This document shows positions 4,121 to 49,909 of a DNA stretch of 64,000 nt, in pieces. Source of the DNA: a virus. Numbering within the stretch: position 1 is the first letter of the stretch; each line of letters opens with the position of its first letter. The DNA is taken from the IMG/VR virus record IMGVR_UViG_3300050821_002122, positions 62,001 through 126,000 of that record. One strand, written 5' to 3'. The position numbers and the translations under genes are program-made. The notes below the pieces were generated by a model that saw only the letters and a list, made by a program, of their open reading frames with translations, searched no databases and was not told the origin of the DNA.

Positions 4121-7100
4121 ATGACTACTCCATCGCAATTCTACTATCCAGTAACAATGCACCGTGACGCGGCAGCAAGTGATACGCTGGCTCCTGTCGT
4201 CATGACTCTCCCACTCGTGCAGTCTGTGGAGGATTTGGTTATCATCTTGCTGAACAGCGTTGGTGAGCAGCCCCAAGGTCTCTACGTCTTCGATGGCATT
4301 CAGTGGCGGTTCGCTATGCCGATGCCAGCAGTAAGTGCTTCGATCATTTTCGCAAGTTCGCTGGACGTCTACATCAATGCAACGTTGGATGTTACGCTCG
4401 ATCCATCGACCATTGTGTACAAAAATGGTCAGCAACAACCTGGTGATGTAATCACTCATGGCAATGCTGTGTACGCTGTTCGCACTCCACCAGCAGGTGG
4501 TGGCGGTGGCGGTGCAGTTACTTCTGTCAATGGTCAGACCGGTACGGTAACTATCAATGCTGCGAATCTGCCAGGTTTGGCTGTCGTTGGTAAGACTGGC
4601 CAATACGCTGATCTGATCGGTGCCCCAGGCCCGTACACGTTGCCTGCGGCAACTACTTCCACGCTCGGTGGTGTGATCGTATCGCCATCAGGTAATCTGT
4701 CGGTCAACGGCAGTGGCACTGTGGACATCAGTTCGGCTCTCTTGGCTTCTATTGCTAGCAAGCTGAATAGCGCTGTTCCAATCGGTACCGGTACTACGCT
4801 CATCGACAGTGTAACCAGCGGTATCTTGACGCTGCGCACTATCACTGCAGGTAGTGGCATCTCGCTGGTGAACAGCAGTGGCACGATCACCGTGGCCTAC
4901 GTGCCTACCATTGCCACTGCAACTGCGCTAGGTAGCGTGATAGTACCTTCGTCGTCGAACTTGAGCGTTGACTCGATGGGTAACATCGACATCACTGGCG
5001 CTTTGATGACGACTATCGCGGGTAAACTGAACAATGTGGTCAACAGCGGTGGTGGAGTATCGGTCGTGCGTTCCTCGACTGGCGGCACTGGCACGTTCAA
5101 ATCGTTGGCCCAAGGCAGCAATATCACCATCGTCGATGACGGTGCTGGCACATTGACCATCGCATCCACGGCTGCTGGAGGCTCGGTAACGCTGACTGGC
5201 GATGTGACGGGTTCAGGTACATCCACCGTTGCAACCACATTGGCTGCATCTGGTGTAACTGCTGGTACCTATACCAAGGTCACGGTTGACGCTAAAGGTC
5301 GTGTTACTGTCGGCGCAGCACTGTCTGGTACTGATGTGAATACGGCACTAGGCTACACGCCATACAACGGTACAACCAACCCTAACGGATACATTGCCGC
5401 CAATCAAGCCATCACTGTCACTGGTGATGCAACAGGTTCTGGTACCACGGCAATCACTCTGACCCTGGCCGCCTCCGGCGTAACTGCTGGTACTTACACC
5501 AAAGTTACCGTGAATGCTAAAGGCTTGGTGACCGCAAGCTCTGCGCTGTCGGCTGGTGACATCAACACTGCGTTGGGCTACACTGCGTACAACGGTGGCA
5601 CCAATCCAAATGGCTTCATCGCAGCCAACCAGACTATCACTTTGAGCGGTGATGCTACCGGTAGCGGTTCGACTGCTATTACTGTAGCGCTTGCCAACAG
5701 CGGTGTATCGGCCGGCACTTACAAGTCGGTGACCGTCAACGCCAAAGGTCTCGTGACTGGTGGCACCAATCCTACGACCCTTGCTGGTTATGGTATCACC
5801 GATGCTTTGAGCAGCCTGACAGGCGGCAGTGTCGCTGGTAACATTACGATGACGAGTGGCGCAACTGTAACAGGTCTGCCTACACCTGTGAACCCATCGG
5901 ATGCTGCTAACAGGAGCTATGTAGATAACGCTATTGCTAGCGTGGCCTCTGGCACTTCATGGCGTAACAATGCGCAGGTCGCTTCGACTGGCAATCTGAC
6001 GCTGAGCGGTCTTCAGACCATCGACGGCTATACCACTTTGGCCAATGACCGCGTGCTAGTCAAAGACCAAACGAATCAAACAGAGAACGGTGTTTATGTC
6101 GCAGCATCCGGCGCGTGGACTCGTGCTACGGACACTGACACTGGTGCAGAAATCATTGGTATGGCCATCTTGGTCATCAATGGTACTGCGAATGCGCTGA
6201 GTCAATGGATCAACACGAACACTGGCAGTATTGTTGTCGGCACTACGAACATTACCTACACCAAATTGCAGGGTAACGGCACCATCTATACTGCTGGTAC
6301 TGGCCTGACACTGACTGGTCAAGTGTTCTCGATTACCAATACAGGCGTTACGGCTGGTACCTACACCAAGGTTACTGTCAACGCACAAGGTCAGGTAACG
6401 ACAGGCGCTGCTTTGGCCTCGTCGGATATTACTACTGCACTGGGCTTCACGCCTTACAATTCGACCAATCCGAGTGGCTATATCTCCGCTAACCAGACAA
6501 TTACGTACACTGGTGACGCCACAGGTTCGGGAACCACTGCTGTAACGTTGACTCTGGCCGCCTCAGGTGTTACGGCTAGCACGTATAACAACGTTACCGT
6601 CGATGCTAAAGGTCGTGTGACCAATGGTTCCAACGTTGCGTACCTGACGGCTAACCAAACCATCACGGTGTCTGGTGACGCGACGGCAAGTGGTTCGACC
6701 ACTCTAGCTCTGACTTTGGCTGCTTCCGGCGTAACTGCTGGTACGTACAAATCGGTCACCGTCAACGCTAAAGGTCTCGTAACGGCTGGCACCAACCCAA
6801 CTACGTTGGCCGGCTTCGGTATCACGGACGCGCTGTCGACCTCGGGTGGTTCGCTGACAGGCACCATCACTGTATCTGGTGGCGGTGCGATCACTGGTCT
6901 GCCTACCCCATCCGCAGCATCTGATGCATCGACCAAAGGTTATACGGACGGAGTCGGTACTGCGACCTACAACAGCGTTTCGTGGAAATTGATGGCAGCG
7001 GCTGCGACTACTGCAAACATCACGTTGAGCGGCTTGCAGGCAATCGACGGTTACACCACGTTAGCAGGTGATCGTGTACTGGTCAAGAATCAGACCACGC

Positions 7101-43707: not shown

Positions 43708-44091
43708 TCAGAGTAGGAAACAACTTACTTGATCGATGATACGCTCACCATCCCATTTCAACACGTAGAGACAATTGGCTGGGAGCAAAAGTTCATCCGA
43801 AGTGAAATACGCATCAGTGATGAGGTGCATGCCAAACATGGTAGCTACATACCCGGTAAGAACTTCCTCACGGCTTCGGGGCTCGATAGCCACTATGAAT
43901 CCATCGCTACCCATTACTGACCCGTAGGTCTTGGAGCCAAAGGCAACCACAATATCGCCTTTTGTTTTCTTGGTTAGCGACTGGTGCATGGATGCCAACA
44001 ACTGAATCGAAAATGGTAAATCGAACTTCGGCTCAGTTCCAGTAGATTGATCGACCAAGCTAAGGATTGATTTGATGTCTTCGGTTTTCAT
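43708..44091 (-). CDS. Unknown protein, paralogue of 39419-39814
   Basis: Product of 127 residues. It shares the GxxxYxxxxxSDxF, MFGMxxxTDAYF and LLLPxxxLYVLxxxGE blocks with the protein at 39419-39814. Its start codon overlaps the stop of thymidylate synthase exon 2 by one base (TAATG), so it is probably translated from the spliced message. Function unknown. Confidence 0.65.
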   Translation of the reverse strand: MKTEDIKSILSLVDQSTGTEPKFDLPFSIQLLASMHQSLTKKTKGDIVVAFGSKTYGSVMGSDGFIVAIEPRSREEVLTGYVATMFGMHLITDAYFTSDELLLPANCLYVLKWDGERIIDQVSCFLL

Positions 44092-44411
44092 TAGACCGCC
44101 ATAGGCGCTTTGATAGCCGCATGATGTTTATAGTTCAGTAGATGGATATCGTTTGGAGCAAGTCCGCTGACTAATTCATCGAGCGACAAGATTGTAGCCC
44201 CAACAGGAACCACTATATCGAGTTCGGGCGGATCGAATGGCTTCCGGCTCAACTGTTCTTCCACCTGATCCAAATGGTTCACGTAGATGTGGGTATCCGA
44301 TAGGAACATCGTCAGCGTTGCTGCGGTGCGGCCAGTCCAGGCAGCGAATAGTCCCAGCAGCAGTGCATAGCCGGCGATGTTGAATGGTGCGCCCAAAAAT
44401 AAATCTACTGA
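44091..44411 (-). CDS. td: Thymidylate synthase, exon 2
   Basis: Second exon, 106 residues plus stop. It encodes SVDLFLGAPFNIAGYALLLG (folate/dUMP-binding region), LSDTHIYVNHLDQVEEQLSR and the terminal NYKHH then IKAPMAV, all hallmark thymidylate synthase segments. It joins exon 1 in frame at MR|SV. The 3' splice site follows the intron-terminal G at 44412. Together the exons give a 314-residue enzyme converting dUMP to dTMP with methylene-tetrahydrofolate. Confidence 0.93.
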   Translation of the reverse strand, partial: SVDLFLGAPFNIAGYALLLGLFAAWTGRTAATLTMFLSDTHIYVNHLDQVEEQLSRKPFDPPELDIVVPVGATILSLDELVSGLAPNDIHLLNYKHHAAIKAPMAV

Positions 44412-45541
44412 CATTATGTTCGATGTGGTTCGCGATACCACACCCGCTAGCTTTGGGCCTCAGCTAACTGCTGCATGTTACCATGCAGAGCAGACTATAT
44501 CACGCTCCTACAAGGAGCCCTTTCTTTTCGAGTGCGCTTGCACCCTACTCTACTTGCTTCCGCACATGCGGGCTTTCGATAGTCGTTAGGCATTTAATCT
44601 ACATACGAGTAATCTGGATAATTCTTGGAACGAATACGATTTAGGATGGTTGCGGTAACTACACCAAGTTTTCTTGCTGCTGCTGTCATGCTTACGTAGG
44701 TTTTTTTACCAATTCGAACCCTCCGCGTGTTGGGAGGAAGTTTACCTTTGTTAAGCTCTGACAAAAGCTGTTTTGTTTTCTTGGTATGTACTTTACCAGC
44801 GAACGAATTCACGTAATCATCGGCAGCCACTCGTGCCAATGCTGATTTTCGATAATTTTCTCTGGCTTCAGGTGTAGTGATGCGCCCGACAGCCTTTTGA
44901 TTACCTAACATGGCATCTGAAAGAATCTTTCTAACTTTTTTAGTATGCGTGTTTCCATACATACCGTTAAGCTCACCAGGTCTGCCCCACGTTTCATCTC
45001 GTTCGTCTTGAGTCATTGCAGCGATGTTCTTATGCATTGTGGTTTTGATCTGCGCTATTATTTCAGTGCGCCTACCATTACGCGTAAGATTATCACCACC
45101 GACAGCGCGCATTCCAATAGTCAATGCTTTTTTATTTTGAAGATTTTTTCGTATTAATTTATCTTCAAGTTTATAAGCATCTCCCCTATCAAGTAGTTTT
45201 ACCACGGTAAAAGTCAGATCAGACGCACCATATTTATCATACAGTTTTTGTAACTTCTGATTTATATGGTCACCACTTGCCAATGCCTTAAGGTGGCCTC
45301 TCTTCCGCGCTCGCATGTTTTTTGAACTACCGTGATAGAATTTTCCAGTTGCTGCACTCGTTATTTTGTAAACACCGCATAGTATTTTCATGACACCTCC
45401 CATTTGGTAGCATCATTAAATTGTGTAGCTAAAAGCGATGTCTAGAATGTAGATATTTAGCACGGGATTGGGTCTGTGACCGTTCCCCGTTTAGAAAGGT
45501 TTGCTAGATAGGTTGCCCTATCAAGGCGCTCAGTGTATCGA
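44412..45541 (-). ncRNA. Group I (IA2-like) self-splicing intron in thymidylate synthase
   Basis: 1130 bases between the exons. The 5' exon ends in U, the intron ends in G (AACATAATG, 44412-44420), and exon GCGU can pair with intron GCGC to give the U.G pair of P1. Core strings: AAACGGGGAACG (45481-45492), ATCCCGTGCTAAAT (within 45455-45470), GCCTAACGACTATC (44578-44591) and GATATAGTC (44493-44501); GACTAT and ATAGTC form P7. GCATGGTAACATGC (44473-44486) forms a hairpin. From memory these strings match the T4 td intron. The intron carries the endonuclease at 44594-45391. Confidence 0.93.
44594..45391 (-). CDS. GIY-YIG homing endonuclease in the intron
   Basis: Product of 265 residues from ATG 45391 (GGGAGGT upstream). 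N-terminal GIY-YIG nuclease: CGVYKITSAATGKFYHGSS, then MRARKRGHLKAL and a Glu in YKLEDKLI. Zinc-independent NUMOD-type DNA-binding repeats follow (ELNGMYGNTHTKKVRKILSD; AGKVHTKKTKQLLSELNKG), and a helix-turn-helix-like NUMOD1 motif SMTAAARKLGVVTATILNRI ends the chain. It is the counterpart of I-TevI of the T4 td intron and would spread the intron to intronless alleles. Confidence 0.93.
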   Translation of the reverse strand: MKILCGVYKITSAATGKFYHGSSKNMRARKRGHLKALASGDHINQKLQKLYDKYGASDLTFTVVKLLDRGDAYKLEDKLIRKNLQNKKALTIGMRAVGGDNLTRNGRRTEIIAQIKTTMHKNIAAMTQDERDETWGRPGELNGMYGNTHTKKVRKILSDAMLGNQKAVGRITTPEARENYRKSALARVAADDYVNSFAGKVHTKKTKQLLSELNKGKLPPNTRRVRIGKKTYVSMTAAARKLGVVTATILNRIRSKNYPDYSYVD

Positions 45542-46165
45542 ACGCATGAGCATTGTCATATGCAAAGTGCCATCTGAGCGCGGCAGGAATTGGAAACTCA
45601 TGTGGCACGCAGGCAAAGCGATCTTATCGATTACCGCCGGATTCCACGCAGTGACGATGATGCGGCGGCTCTGGCTATTGTTCCGAATGTCATTCAAGGC
45701 GTTAGCCAATTGGTCGATACGTTGCTGGGCCACAATGCCGGTTTTGCCTTCCCAGACAAAATCAAATATGGGCATCAGGTGGTCCGGCAAGAAAGGTGCC
45801 TCAGTTAGAATTTGTGGCTGACCTGCCCAGTTACGCCACTGACTGCCGTAGACTGGTCCCAGATCGTCTACGCCTTTACGGTTCGGATTGGCCAACCACG
45901 CAGCGTTCTCGTTGGCGTTCTGATCCCAGACCTTACACCCGTTTGCCCTGAACTCGGCTGCTGATGTGGCGCCATTCAGGAAGCTGATGTATTCACCCTT
46001 GACTGAATCGAAGGCCAGCTTCTTGGTTGTGGTTGCTGGGAAGCCGTCGCGCAGATCGTAGCGCAGCATCTCACCTGGTGTAGTGATCGTGTCGATGCCA
46101 GTACGGTTGGGTTCACGCTGGCCGACGGTCAAAACGTGCTTCATCAAATCTTGGTAGTTTTTCAT
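45542..46165 (-). CDS. td: Thymidylate synthase, exon 1
   Basis: First exon, 208 codons from ATG 46165 (AGGAAGC upstream). It contains NRTGIDTITTPGEMLRYDL (Arg for phosphate binding), GPVYGSQWRNW, SRRIIVTAWNP and the catalytic Cys187 in ALPACHMSFQF. After Arg208 the frame would end within nine bases in the intron, so splicing is required for an active enzyme. dTMP supply pairs with the FolE and deazaguanine genes of the same region only by location. Confidence 0.93.
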
Positions 46166-46190
46166 TTTTGCTTCCTATTAATGAATATCG

Positions 46191-46229
46191 AAAAATACGG
46201 AGGTGGAATCTTGTGGTATTCCACCTCCG
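46191..46229 (-). terminator. Rho-independent terminator upstream of thymidylate synthase
   Basis: Minus strand CGGAGGTGGAAT pairs with ATTCCACCTCCG (12 pairs; plus 46218-46229 and 46198-46209) followed by ATTTTT. It ends the transcript of the small-gene block (46237 onward). The thymidylate synthase ATG lies 26 bases downstream. Confidence 0.92.
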
Positions 46230-46236
46230 CTTTCTG

Positions 46237-48260: not shown

Positions 48261-48438
48261 TGTCGTCTCCATCGTATGGTGGTGGGGTTTGGGTCTGCGT
48301 TTCTCCACACATGGGACAACCGTCCTGCGTGTAGTGAATGTTGTCCACAGTTTGGATATGTGCAGGGTACCAATTGCCGCACAAACACTGTGCTACAATC
48401 TGAGGTTTATCTTTGCATGCCTTCCAGTCCAAGACCAT
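48244..48438 (-). CDS. Small zinc-ribbon protein
   Basis: Product of 64 residues from ATG 48438 (AAGGAG upstream; TGATG overlap with the folE stop). Two Cys pairs, CLCGNWY and CPMCGE, 22 residues apart, make a zinc ribbon. It is similar to the protein at 56723-56914 (CKCGHIY, CANCGD). These may be nucleic acid- or partner-binding adaptors in the modification block. Confidence 0.68.
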   Translation of the reverse strand: MVLDWKACKDKPQIVAQCLCGNWYPAHIQTVDNIHYTQDGCPMCGETQTQTPPPYDGDDNATDR

Positions 48439-49124
48439 CACGTTGCTCCTTTGGTTTGCTCCACCATACGGTAGAATTCTTCTTTTAGGGATTTGTCGGT
48501 GCGCATTTCACCACGCATCACGGAGGTGACCATACGACTACCTTGATCCTTCACACCGCGGTGGCCGCAGCACAAATGATTGCCCACGACCATAACGGCC
48601 AGACCTAATGGTTCGGTCAACGCCTCCAGCTCATTAGCTATCTGATCTGTAAGTTCCTCCTGAATTTGCGGGCGGCTTGCTATATGAGCCACGATGCGAT
48701 GGAACTTGGAGAGGCCGATCAGTTTGTCTTGAGGTAAGACACCGATGTAGGCCTGTCCGGTAATAGGTACCAGATGGTGGGCACATGAGCTACGCATATT
48801 AATGGGGCCAACGACGTATAGCTCATCGACCTTATTCACGTTAGGGAATTCAGTGACATCGGGCATCGGAACATACCGACCGTTGAAGGTCTCCAATACC
48901 AGCATCTTGGCAAAGCGACGAGCGGTATCTGCCGAGTTATGATCGTTCTTCGTGTCGATGACCAGCGACTTTAGCACTGCCTGCATTTTGGTAGCAACCT
49001 CATCGACCAACAGTGGTATGTCTTTCTCATCGATTGCCGACGAGATGTTGTCGTTGCTGAAGAACCGCATTTTACCTGCTGCGAGTCGGTCACGAATAAC
49101 ATCACTGATTGGTTTGATTTTCAT
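48438..49124 (-). CDS. folE: GTP cyclohydrolase I
   Basis: Product of 228 residues from ATG 49124 (GGGGATC upstream, ATGA overlap with queE). FolE signatures: RSSCAHHLVPITGQAYIGVL (zinc Cys114 and His), LIGLSKFHRIV, RPQIQEELT and GNHLCCGHRGV with the second zinc Cys. It opens GTP to dihydroneopterin triphosphate, first step of folate and 7-deazaguanine synthesis. Coupling with queE and the DpdA-like gene points to deazaguanine. Confidence 0.95.
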   Translation of the reverse strand: MKIKPISDVIRDRLAAGKMRFFSNDNISSAIDEKDIPLLVDEVATKMQAVLKSLVIDTKNDHNSADTARRFAKMLVLETFNGRYVPMPDVTEFPNVNKVDELYVVGPINMRSSCAHHLVPITGQAYIGVLPQDKLIGLSKFHRIVAHIASRPQIQEELTDQIANELEALTEPLGLAVMVVGNHLCCGHRGVKDQGSRMVTSVMRGEMRTDKSLKEEFYRMVEQTKGAT

Positions 49125-49909
49125 GCGATCCCCAGAAAAATATGTGCTTGAATACTGACGTTGATAGAGTGCTTCAGTGCGTAGGCTGCCGCGTATTGGA
49201 AGTTTGCTGCGGTCTGTACTTTGTCCACCAAGCCGTCTTCCCAGATGGAAGAAACTTCGCCCATGTACGCCTTCTGATAGATCACCATAGGTGACACGTA
49301 TATAGGCTTGTGGCTTTCTAGCGCCCAATCAGGAACCTCATGATGCGGGTTGTCTGGATCAGCAGATATAACAAACTTAAGGCAGTTAGCCCACCAGAGG
49401 ACGTCGTTGTTGATTTTCGGATACTTGCCAGTATTGACATTTGCTTTAGGCGAAACAACCGATACGAAACGTTTGGTCATCTTGCGACGCACTGCCTCCA
49501 AGTAGAACTTGGGCTGCGTACCGTTGGTTTCCAGTTGGATCGTCTCGAACATCGGCTCTGCCAAAACGATCAGATCGAGTAACGCCAGTTGCAACGTTGG
49601 TTCTCCGCCTGTGATGACCAGTATCTGTTTCTTGTTGTAGCCCTGGGTCATGATGAAGTCTAGCAACTCCTGCGGAGTGTAGGCATTAGCAGTATCGAAC
49701 TGGAAACTGGTATCGCAGAAGTGGCAGAAATCAGTCTTCGATCCGTAGTTGCAGCCAGCTAGGCGCACGAACATAGCTGGACGGCCCACCAAAGGACCCT
49801 CACCTTGATGCGTTGCGAAGACAGACGAAACCAACAGGCGACCATCCAGCGCCTTGTAATCTCGCGCAGATACATTGCGATCTGCGTTTTGGGGAATAAT
49901 TGGGATCAT
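49121..49909 (-). CDS. queE: 7-carboxy-7-deazaguanine synthase (radical SAM)
   Basis: Product of 262 residues. The start SVFATHQGEGPLVGRPAMFV is the QueE opening, followed by RLAGCNYG and DFCHFCDT; Cys53, Cys62 and Cys65 bind the iron-sulfur cluster in a CX8CX2C variant. VITGGEPTLQ and LETNGTQ are the SAM-binding segments. It converts the QueD product to 7-carboxy-7-deazaguanine. GAGGAAT ribosome site. Confidence 0.93.
   Translation of the reverse strand: MIPIIPQNADRNVSARDYKALDGRLLVSSVFATHQGEGPLVGRPAMFVRLAGCNYGSKTDFCHFCDTSFQFDTANAYTPQELLDFIMTQGYNKKQILVITGGEPTLQLALLDLIVLAEPMFETIQLETNGTQPKFYLEAVRRKMTKRFVSVVSPKANVNTGKYPKINNDVLWWANCLKFVISADPDNPHHEVPDWALESHKPIYVSPMVIYQKAYMGEVSSIWEDGLVDKVQTAANFQYAAAYALKHSINVSIQAHIFLGIA

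Follow-up and report, generated by a model that had tools for sequence, protein, structure and literature searches.

The thymidylate synthase gene (td) on the minus strand (46165..44091) of the viral sequence IMGVR_UViG_3300050821_002122 is split by a 1,130-nt intron. This very probably is a group IA2 intron of the td family, inserted between an arginine and a serine codon (the R/S site) and spliced to give a 314-aa synthase, in a lineage that did not move here from the site used in phage T4. The window, that is the whole stretch of DNA analysed, is 64,000 nt long and corresponds to bases 62001-126000 of this 189,689-bp record, described as that of a large bacterial virus; all coordinates refer to the window. 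The R/S site is not a new one but the one that td introns usually occupy in the loci surveyed. The features of the split gene are as follows.

45542..46165, minus strand: td exon 1, 208 codons, residues 1-208, ends ATG CGT (...LMR); PF00303, E 7e-50
44412..45541, minus strand: predicted group IA2-type intron, 1,130 nt, between the Arg208 and Ser209 codons (R/S site), starts with U, ends with G
45526..45534, minus strand: internal guide ACUGA/GCGC, P1 of 4 bp and P10 of 5 bp; P1 also in the 5' domain fold
45507..45522, minus strand: P2 hairpin GATAGG-GCAA-CCTATC, 5' domain fold
45494..45499, minus strand: P3 5' strand CCUUUC, comparison among introns
45462..45490, minus strand: P4-P5 region ACGGGG...CCCGU, 5' domain fold
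44594..45391, minus strand: GIY-YIG endonuclease open reading frame (ORF), 265 aa, between P4-P5 and P7, P6 loop by position
44580..44584, minus strand: P7 5' strand GACUA, comparison; outside the 3' single-strand fold
44560..44571, minus strand: P7.1 hairpin CCGC-AUGU-GCGG, 3' domain fold
44530..44545, minus strand: P7.2 hairpin GGGUGC-AAGC-GCACUC, 3' domain fold; weak in the alignment test
44519..44524, minus strand: P3 3' strand GAAAGG, comparison among introns
44504..44518, minus strand: P8 hairpin GCUCCU-UGU-AGGAGC, 3' domain fold and alignment
44493..44497, minus strand: P7 3' strand UAGUC, comparison among introns
44471..44488, minus strand: P9 hairpin CUGCAUG-GUAA-CAUGCAG, 3' domain fold and alignment
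44446..44468, minus strand: P9.1 GUUAGCU...AGCUAGC, 3' domain fold and alignment
44423..44443, minus strand: P9.2 GUGUGGU...ACCACAU, 3' domain fold and alignment
44091..44411, minus strand: td exon 2, residues 209-314, starts TCA GTA GAT (SVDLFLGAPFN); PF00303, E 5e-26

An earlier note on this DNA had described td as two intact exons joining in frame at MR/SV, around an intron of 1,130 nt with a 5' U and a terminal G (45541..44412). These boundaries are right because the joined exons form an in-frame coding sequence of 945 nt (314 aa and a stop), the Pfam Thymidylat_synt profile is covered without gap (positions 1-168 by exon 1, 169-266 by exon 2), and thymidylate synthase is uninterrupted in the nearest relative found in IMG/VR (L135; L numbers are our labels for loci), where it has 315 aa and 66% amino acid identity over residues 1-314.

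Both splice sites are matched by an internal guide. Its GCGC part pairs with GCGU, the last four bases of exon 1, giving a 4-bp P1 with a U-G pair at the 5' splice site; its ACUGA part pairs with UCAGU, the first five bases of exon 2, giving a 5-bp P10; and the intron ends in G. The exact junction is supported because the guide covaries with the exon. This was followed in 36 R/S introns with both ends (35 distinct), the guide being located blind to exon 2. The guide base facing position +1 of exon 2 was U in 6/6 introns with an AGY serine codon, and A (28) or G (2) in all 30 introns with a TCN serine codon. A separate count, choosing the best-pairing guide, gave the same numbers. P10 comprised at least 3 bp in 32 of the 36. 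In L073 exon 1 ends in CCGU, versus GCGU, and the guide reads GCGG; the same CCGU/GCGG combination recurs at a third insertion site described below.

The group IA2 layout includes P7.1/P7.2 and P9.1/P9.2 extensions, and all four are present in the 3' domain fold of the window intron. This fold (P7.1, P7.2, P8, P9, P9.1 and P9.2) had a z-score of -2.25, with 2/200 shuffles as good, and the 5' domain fold (P1, P2 and P4-P5) a z-score of -3.53, with none of 200 shuffles as good. P3 and P7 cross each other and appear in neither single-strand fold; both rest on comparison among introns. In the window P3 is CCUUUC/GAAAGG and P7 is GACUA/UAGUC; in T4 P3 is UCUAUC/GAUAGA. We scanned 46 introns with both ends, 8 of which went unscored since the motif missed the start point. 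A 6-bp P3 partner (G-U allowed) was found between the P7 strands in all 38 scored introns, in 17 sequence combinations, some introns having two candidates; by our own estimate, made without a shuffled control, a chance partner would occur in about a fifth of introns.

The remaining helices were evaluated in a 3'-domain alignment of 47 distinct cores (44 from td and 3 from other genes, many of them related), with pairing counted per cell. P7 paired in 235/235 cells, its sequence being invariant, and P8, P9, P9.1 and P9.2 paired in 262/276, 327/329, 205/252 and 285/325 cells, respectively. Sliding the partner by 1-3 columns lowered the paired fraction to 0.06-0.54, and several compensatory pair types were observed in each of P8, P9, P9.1 and P9.2. 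Phages SPbetaL1, Joad and SL2 are absent from the core set, their P7 strands being unlike the search string, as is JA29, for lack of an extracted 5' splice site; removal of identical rows reduced the set from 50 to 47. A group I core is thus recognised from P7 and a covarying P3, together with P8 and P9, in the comparison among introns. Judged from these features the window intron is of group IA2 type and of the td family, which agrees with the T4 td-like class proposed earlier: its 3' domain is alignable throughout with that of the T4 td intron, and P3, P7 and P8 are present.

The insertion lies between the Arg and Ser codons of a (Q/M)RS motif. The T4 td site falls within exon 2, 21 nt downstream of the R/S site, and the earlier placement seven codons upstream of the T4 site is therefore exact. 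A DNA pattern accepting either the T4 or the R/S position retrieved 109 stretches from IMG/VR. A second scan, limited to the R/S neighbourhood and blind to the T4 site, yielded 18 bacterial and 22 viral loci, and all 22 viral ones had already been found. Loci were kept if they had a thymidylate synthase exon, and an exon-2-start filter dropped, among others, L085 and the bacterial L123; L085 is the same contig as L160 and has an R/S intron, and the intronless L095 was kept. The 55 td loci kept, including T4 and the window, comprised 42 with an R/S intron, 6 with an intron at the T4 site, 6 at a third site and 1 without intron. Among viral loci from the either-site pattern the corresponding numbers were 24, 5, 6 and 1, so that R/S accounts for 24/35 viral td introns, and 17/18 bacterial loci of the R/S-limited scan were of the R/S kind. 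These counts do not represent independent events because several contigs are near-copies. Named phages with R/S introns are phiP4-3, JA29, Joad, SL2, SPbetaL1 and Bobb (SL2 and SPbetaL1 by eye). In a sample of 65 loci not chosen for introns (61 read by script, L192 and L201 by eye), 63 were uninterrupted, 1 had an R/S intron (L160) and 1 a T4-site intron (L153). Thus td introns are rare overall.

The third insertion point lies inside a Val codon, 5 nt downstream of R/S, exon 1 ending in CGTTCCGT and exon 2 starting with AGA. It is used in L019 (plus strand, exon 2 near 4827), L048, L049, L064, L057 and L108. The 5' end was located in 4 of these 6 loci, each with a P1 of 4 and a P10 of 4, and the endonuclease of this site clusters (98/96) with the one from L058, whose intron lies at the T4 site. 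Very similar R/S introns were also observed with an ORF (L010, L097 and L102; 1,049-1,050 nt) and without (L059 and L065; 265 nt), forming a presence/absence pair.

The start of the ORF within the window intron is more likely the ATG at 45391, behind GGGAGGTG, than 45403. The earlier note saw in it a GIY-YIG endonuclease like I-TevI, and profile searches bear this out: the product matches PF01541 (GIY-YIG) with 26.3 bits against a cutoff of 22.6, PF07460 (NUMOD3) with 24.1 against 20.4, and the I-TevI catalytic domain 1mk0 with E 7.5e-5. A Cys4 zinc-finger pattern, present in I-TevI, was searched for in the window endonuclease and not found. Its identity is 23% to I-TevI, 28% to the phiP4-3 enzyme and 33-38% to six others, all from phages and encoded within or next to td. 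No relatives were retrieved from IMG/VR by a peptide-pattern scan with this endonuclease; tblastn against named phages matched 307 records. Free-standing GIY-YIG genes were seen beside unsplit td in L164 (Gostya9), L166 (Apostate) and L167 (Ac42), the window endonuclease being 38% identical to that of Gostya9 and 35% to that of Ac42. A hairpin of -9.5 kcal/mol over 46 nt is predicted (no shuffled control) on the minus strand at 45380-45425, overlapping the endonuclease start and its ribosome-binding site GGGAGGTG.

In a 47-row IQ-TREE phylogeny of 3' domains, in which many branches are long, the window falls in a 14-row all-R/S group (100/99). Scattered among the td introns, with weak support, are the introns of T4 nrdB and of the DNA polymerase genes of JSE and PT2. 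A FastTree of the cores placed the L010 group differently from IQ-TREE, the window staying with R/S rows and adjoining the JSE DNA-polymerase intron. In the 29-row endonuclease tree the window belongs to a nine-row R/S-only group; the row most similar to it is L117, with 42% identity over 137 columns. The alignment of cores and insertion sites suggested earlier therefore puts the window with the 42 R/S loci out of 55 and in R/S-only groups. Megablast with 24.9 kb around td gave only one match, of 36 bp: bases 44466-44501 of the window, within P7-P9, are identical to the DNA-polymerase intron of Aeromonas vB_AhaP_PT2 (Studiervirinae), an indication that cores of the td type are not confined to td genes.

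Several observations weigh against this interpretation. P10 is shorter than 3 bp in 4/36 R/S introns. P7 does not vary and hence provides no covariation. P7.2 pairs poorly (161/272 cells, versus 0.31-0.51 when slid), probably owing to misalignment, and the innermost pair of P9.2 fails in 29/47 cores. The position of the window in the endonuclease tree is weak, its 91/98 support lying below the level at which branches were starred, with an end branch of 1.35 and a composition flagged as odd. A covariance-model search, advised by the earlier note, found no match to Rfam RF00028 in the window at the gathering score (21.2 bits, cutoff 50). With the same model T4 td scored 35.7, Bobb 24.6 and L036 24.7, all below 50, the ORF-less L059 passed with 70.5, and neither of the two other loci, L117 and L122, matched at E 0.1, although L122 is ORF-less. 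Since the T4 td intron itself fails, the result reflects a limit of the model: td introns cannot be told from other sequence by the RF00028 threshold. The last adverse points concern the endonuclease. In a 29-row alignment, some of whose rows are near-copies, five of the six active-site residues (Tyr, Tyr, Arg, His, Glu, Asn) are kept, as equivalents of Y6, Y17, R27, H31 and E75 of I-TevI. The N90 position is Thr in the window and Asn in 27/27 other rows with a residue there, one truncated row being gapped. The YIG motif reads YHG, its middle His occurring only in the window among the 27 rows with a residue there. Finally, exon 1 of the window (ATGCGT) lacks the CNNNG at -6..-2 that 34/36 R/S introns have; L073 lacks it likewise.

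These endonuclease changes bear on whether the intron is still mobile. The conserved Arg, Glu and Asn of GIY-YIG enzymes act in catalysis, Asn being counted among the catalytic residues (PMC2988022; this and the other PMC articles are cited for part of their text), and N87 is given as catalytically relevant in the I-BmoI paper. The window enzyme is by homology a member of the I-TevI/I-BmoI family whose activity is doubtful: with Thr for Asn and YHG it may be weak or dead, and the absence of CNNNG adds to the doubt about present-day homing. The intron may thus still splice while its endonuclease no longer cuts, being inherited vertically in the decay phase of the homing cycle. This has a substantial chance of being correct, if somewhat short of even, given the unique His, the Thr at an otherwise invariant position and the drifted exon target; on the other side, the ORF is open over its 265 aa with the five other residues kept, and the Thr codon is one base away from an Asn codon in a single assembly.

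The earlier note had explained the intron by a T4-type td intron that moved 21 nt upstream, or by an endonuclease whose specificity changed, among the ancestors of this phage. We consider this very unlikely. Insertion sites have indeed shifted in some lineages of the wider family, since placing the T4-site label on the endonuclease tree requires three changes, each of them forced by starred branches, and the R/S enzyme of phiP4-3 clusters with I-TevI (98/98). However, the core and the endonuclease of the window both lie in R/S-only groups, apart from the T4-site rows, the endonuclease is closer to its six relatives in or beside td than to I-TevI, and R/S is the usual site. There is thus no indication that the site changed in this phage. 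Scarcely credible is an absence of splicing, with the halves as separate polypeptides or td broken: each half is an ORF in the program-made list and exon 2 is preceded by in-frame starts (GTG at 44441, and an ATG formed by the final three intron bases), but core and guide covary, the junction is conserved, and the two exons together cover the synthase profile without loss.

We therefore retain a td-family intron at its customary R/S site. The pre-mRNA would fold into a group I ribozyme, with exon 1 bound through GCGU in P1 and exon 2 through UCAGU in P10 by the guide ACUGAGCGC. Excision of the intron would then allow the 314-aa synthase to be made, splicing of the td transcript being inferred from homology and covariation. 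The ORF would encode, or until recently have encoded, an endonuclease of the I-TevI/I-BmoI type, cutting intronless td close to where the intron inserts, the intron then being copied in during repair of the break. The element would derive from a lineage that uses the R/S site in other phages and in Bacillota. The intron base at -2 is not G in 36/36 R/S introns (T 29, C 5, A 2). In exon 1 that base is G, though this follows in part from locating the exon end by its CGT codon. Judged from these 36 sequences, insertion removes a base pair that I-BmoI needs, and the phage's own allele would escape cutting because that G belongs to exon 1 and is missing from the end of the intron.

The I-BmoI ORF occupies a different loop of its intron, and Edgell and Shub (2001) reportedly placed the I-BmoI intron 21 nt upstream of the T4 site. 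The same position, which is that of the window, can be deduced for the intron of Bacillus mojavensis thyA from the portions used of PMC2988022 and PMC3161791. The I-BmoI system thus resembles the window in gene, in GIY-YIG endonuclease and in site (as deduced), and differs in its bacterial host, the Thr for catalytic Asn being a feature of the window; the likeness is drawn from descriptions and not from sequence. The T4 td/I-TevI system shares intron class, ORF place (the I-TevI ORF is in the P6 loop; PMC3073962) and a 3' domain alignable throughout, but the intron inserts 21 nt further downstream, and its endonuclease, which carries a Cys4 zinc finger, is 23% identical to that of the window. 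The cuts made by I-TevI lie 23 and 25 nt upstream of the point of insertion (PMC2988022). The td intron of Bacillus phage Bobb (L081, L171) is like that of the window in its R/S site, ORF place and endonuclease (34% identity); Bobb is unlike it as a Herelleviridae phage of Bacillus, in its P7.1/P7.2 lengths and in having kept its CAGCG target. Its thymidylate synthase gene is split into gp223 and gp221, with the GIY-YIG protein gp222 (PMC4528723). Two GIY-YIG intron ORFs, one in a thymidylate synthase and one in a reductase gene, are given for Nitunavirus and Agatevirus in PMC11878797, the former probably being the Agatevirus one; Bobb is unnamed in the portion of that article used. Splicing is reported in that phage group for 8/9 genes tested, among polymerase, terminase and reductase genes (PMC11878797). 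Bacillus phage beta 22 likewise has a group I intron in its thymidylate synthase gene (PMC3073962, PMC4528723, PMC8541194).

Three further observations concern the surroundings of td and its other insertions. Just upstream of td, at 46190-46234, a strong inverted repeat (GGAGGTGGAAT...ATTCCACCTCC) followed by a T-rich run on the minus strand looks like an intrinsic terminator; it was read by eye, with no dedicated scan. Further upstream is a GTP cyclohydrolase I gene (48438-49277, minus strand, Pfam E 1.9e-45). At L161:4001-5620 a single 539-aa frame encodes a thymidylate synthase with an in-frame insertion of more than 200 aa between about residues 113 and 170, possibly a homing endonuclease; the frame has an I-HmuI NUMOD-like match of 25.1 bits, just below the Pfam cutoff of 27.

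The window intron is one more member of the known td-intron family. As a tentative proposal, which we hold to be possible without favouring it, the R/S site and those 5 and 21 nt downstream could be alternative landings of one endonuclease lineage on the same DNA, switching being eased by re-tuning of the guide to the exon, down to the type of Ser codon, and the window would represent a late state with a catalytic residue lost and the exon target drifted. What appeared as an oddity, a T4-type intron at another site, proves to be the norm for the td introns found. These introns form a small comparative set in which splice-site guides track synonymous serine codons, and if the endonuclease is dead, the window would exemplify an intron kept after it had ceased to be mobile.

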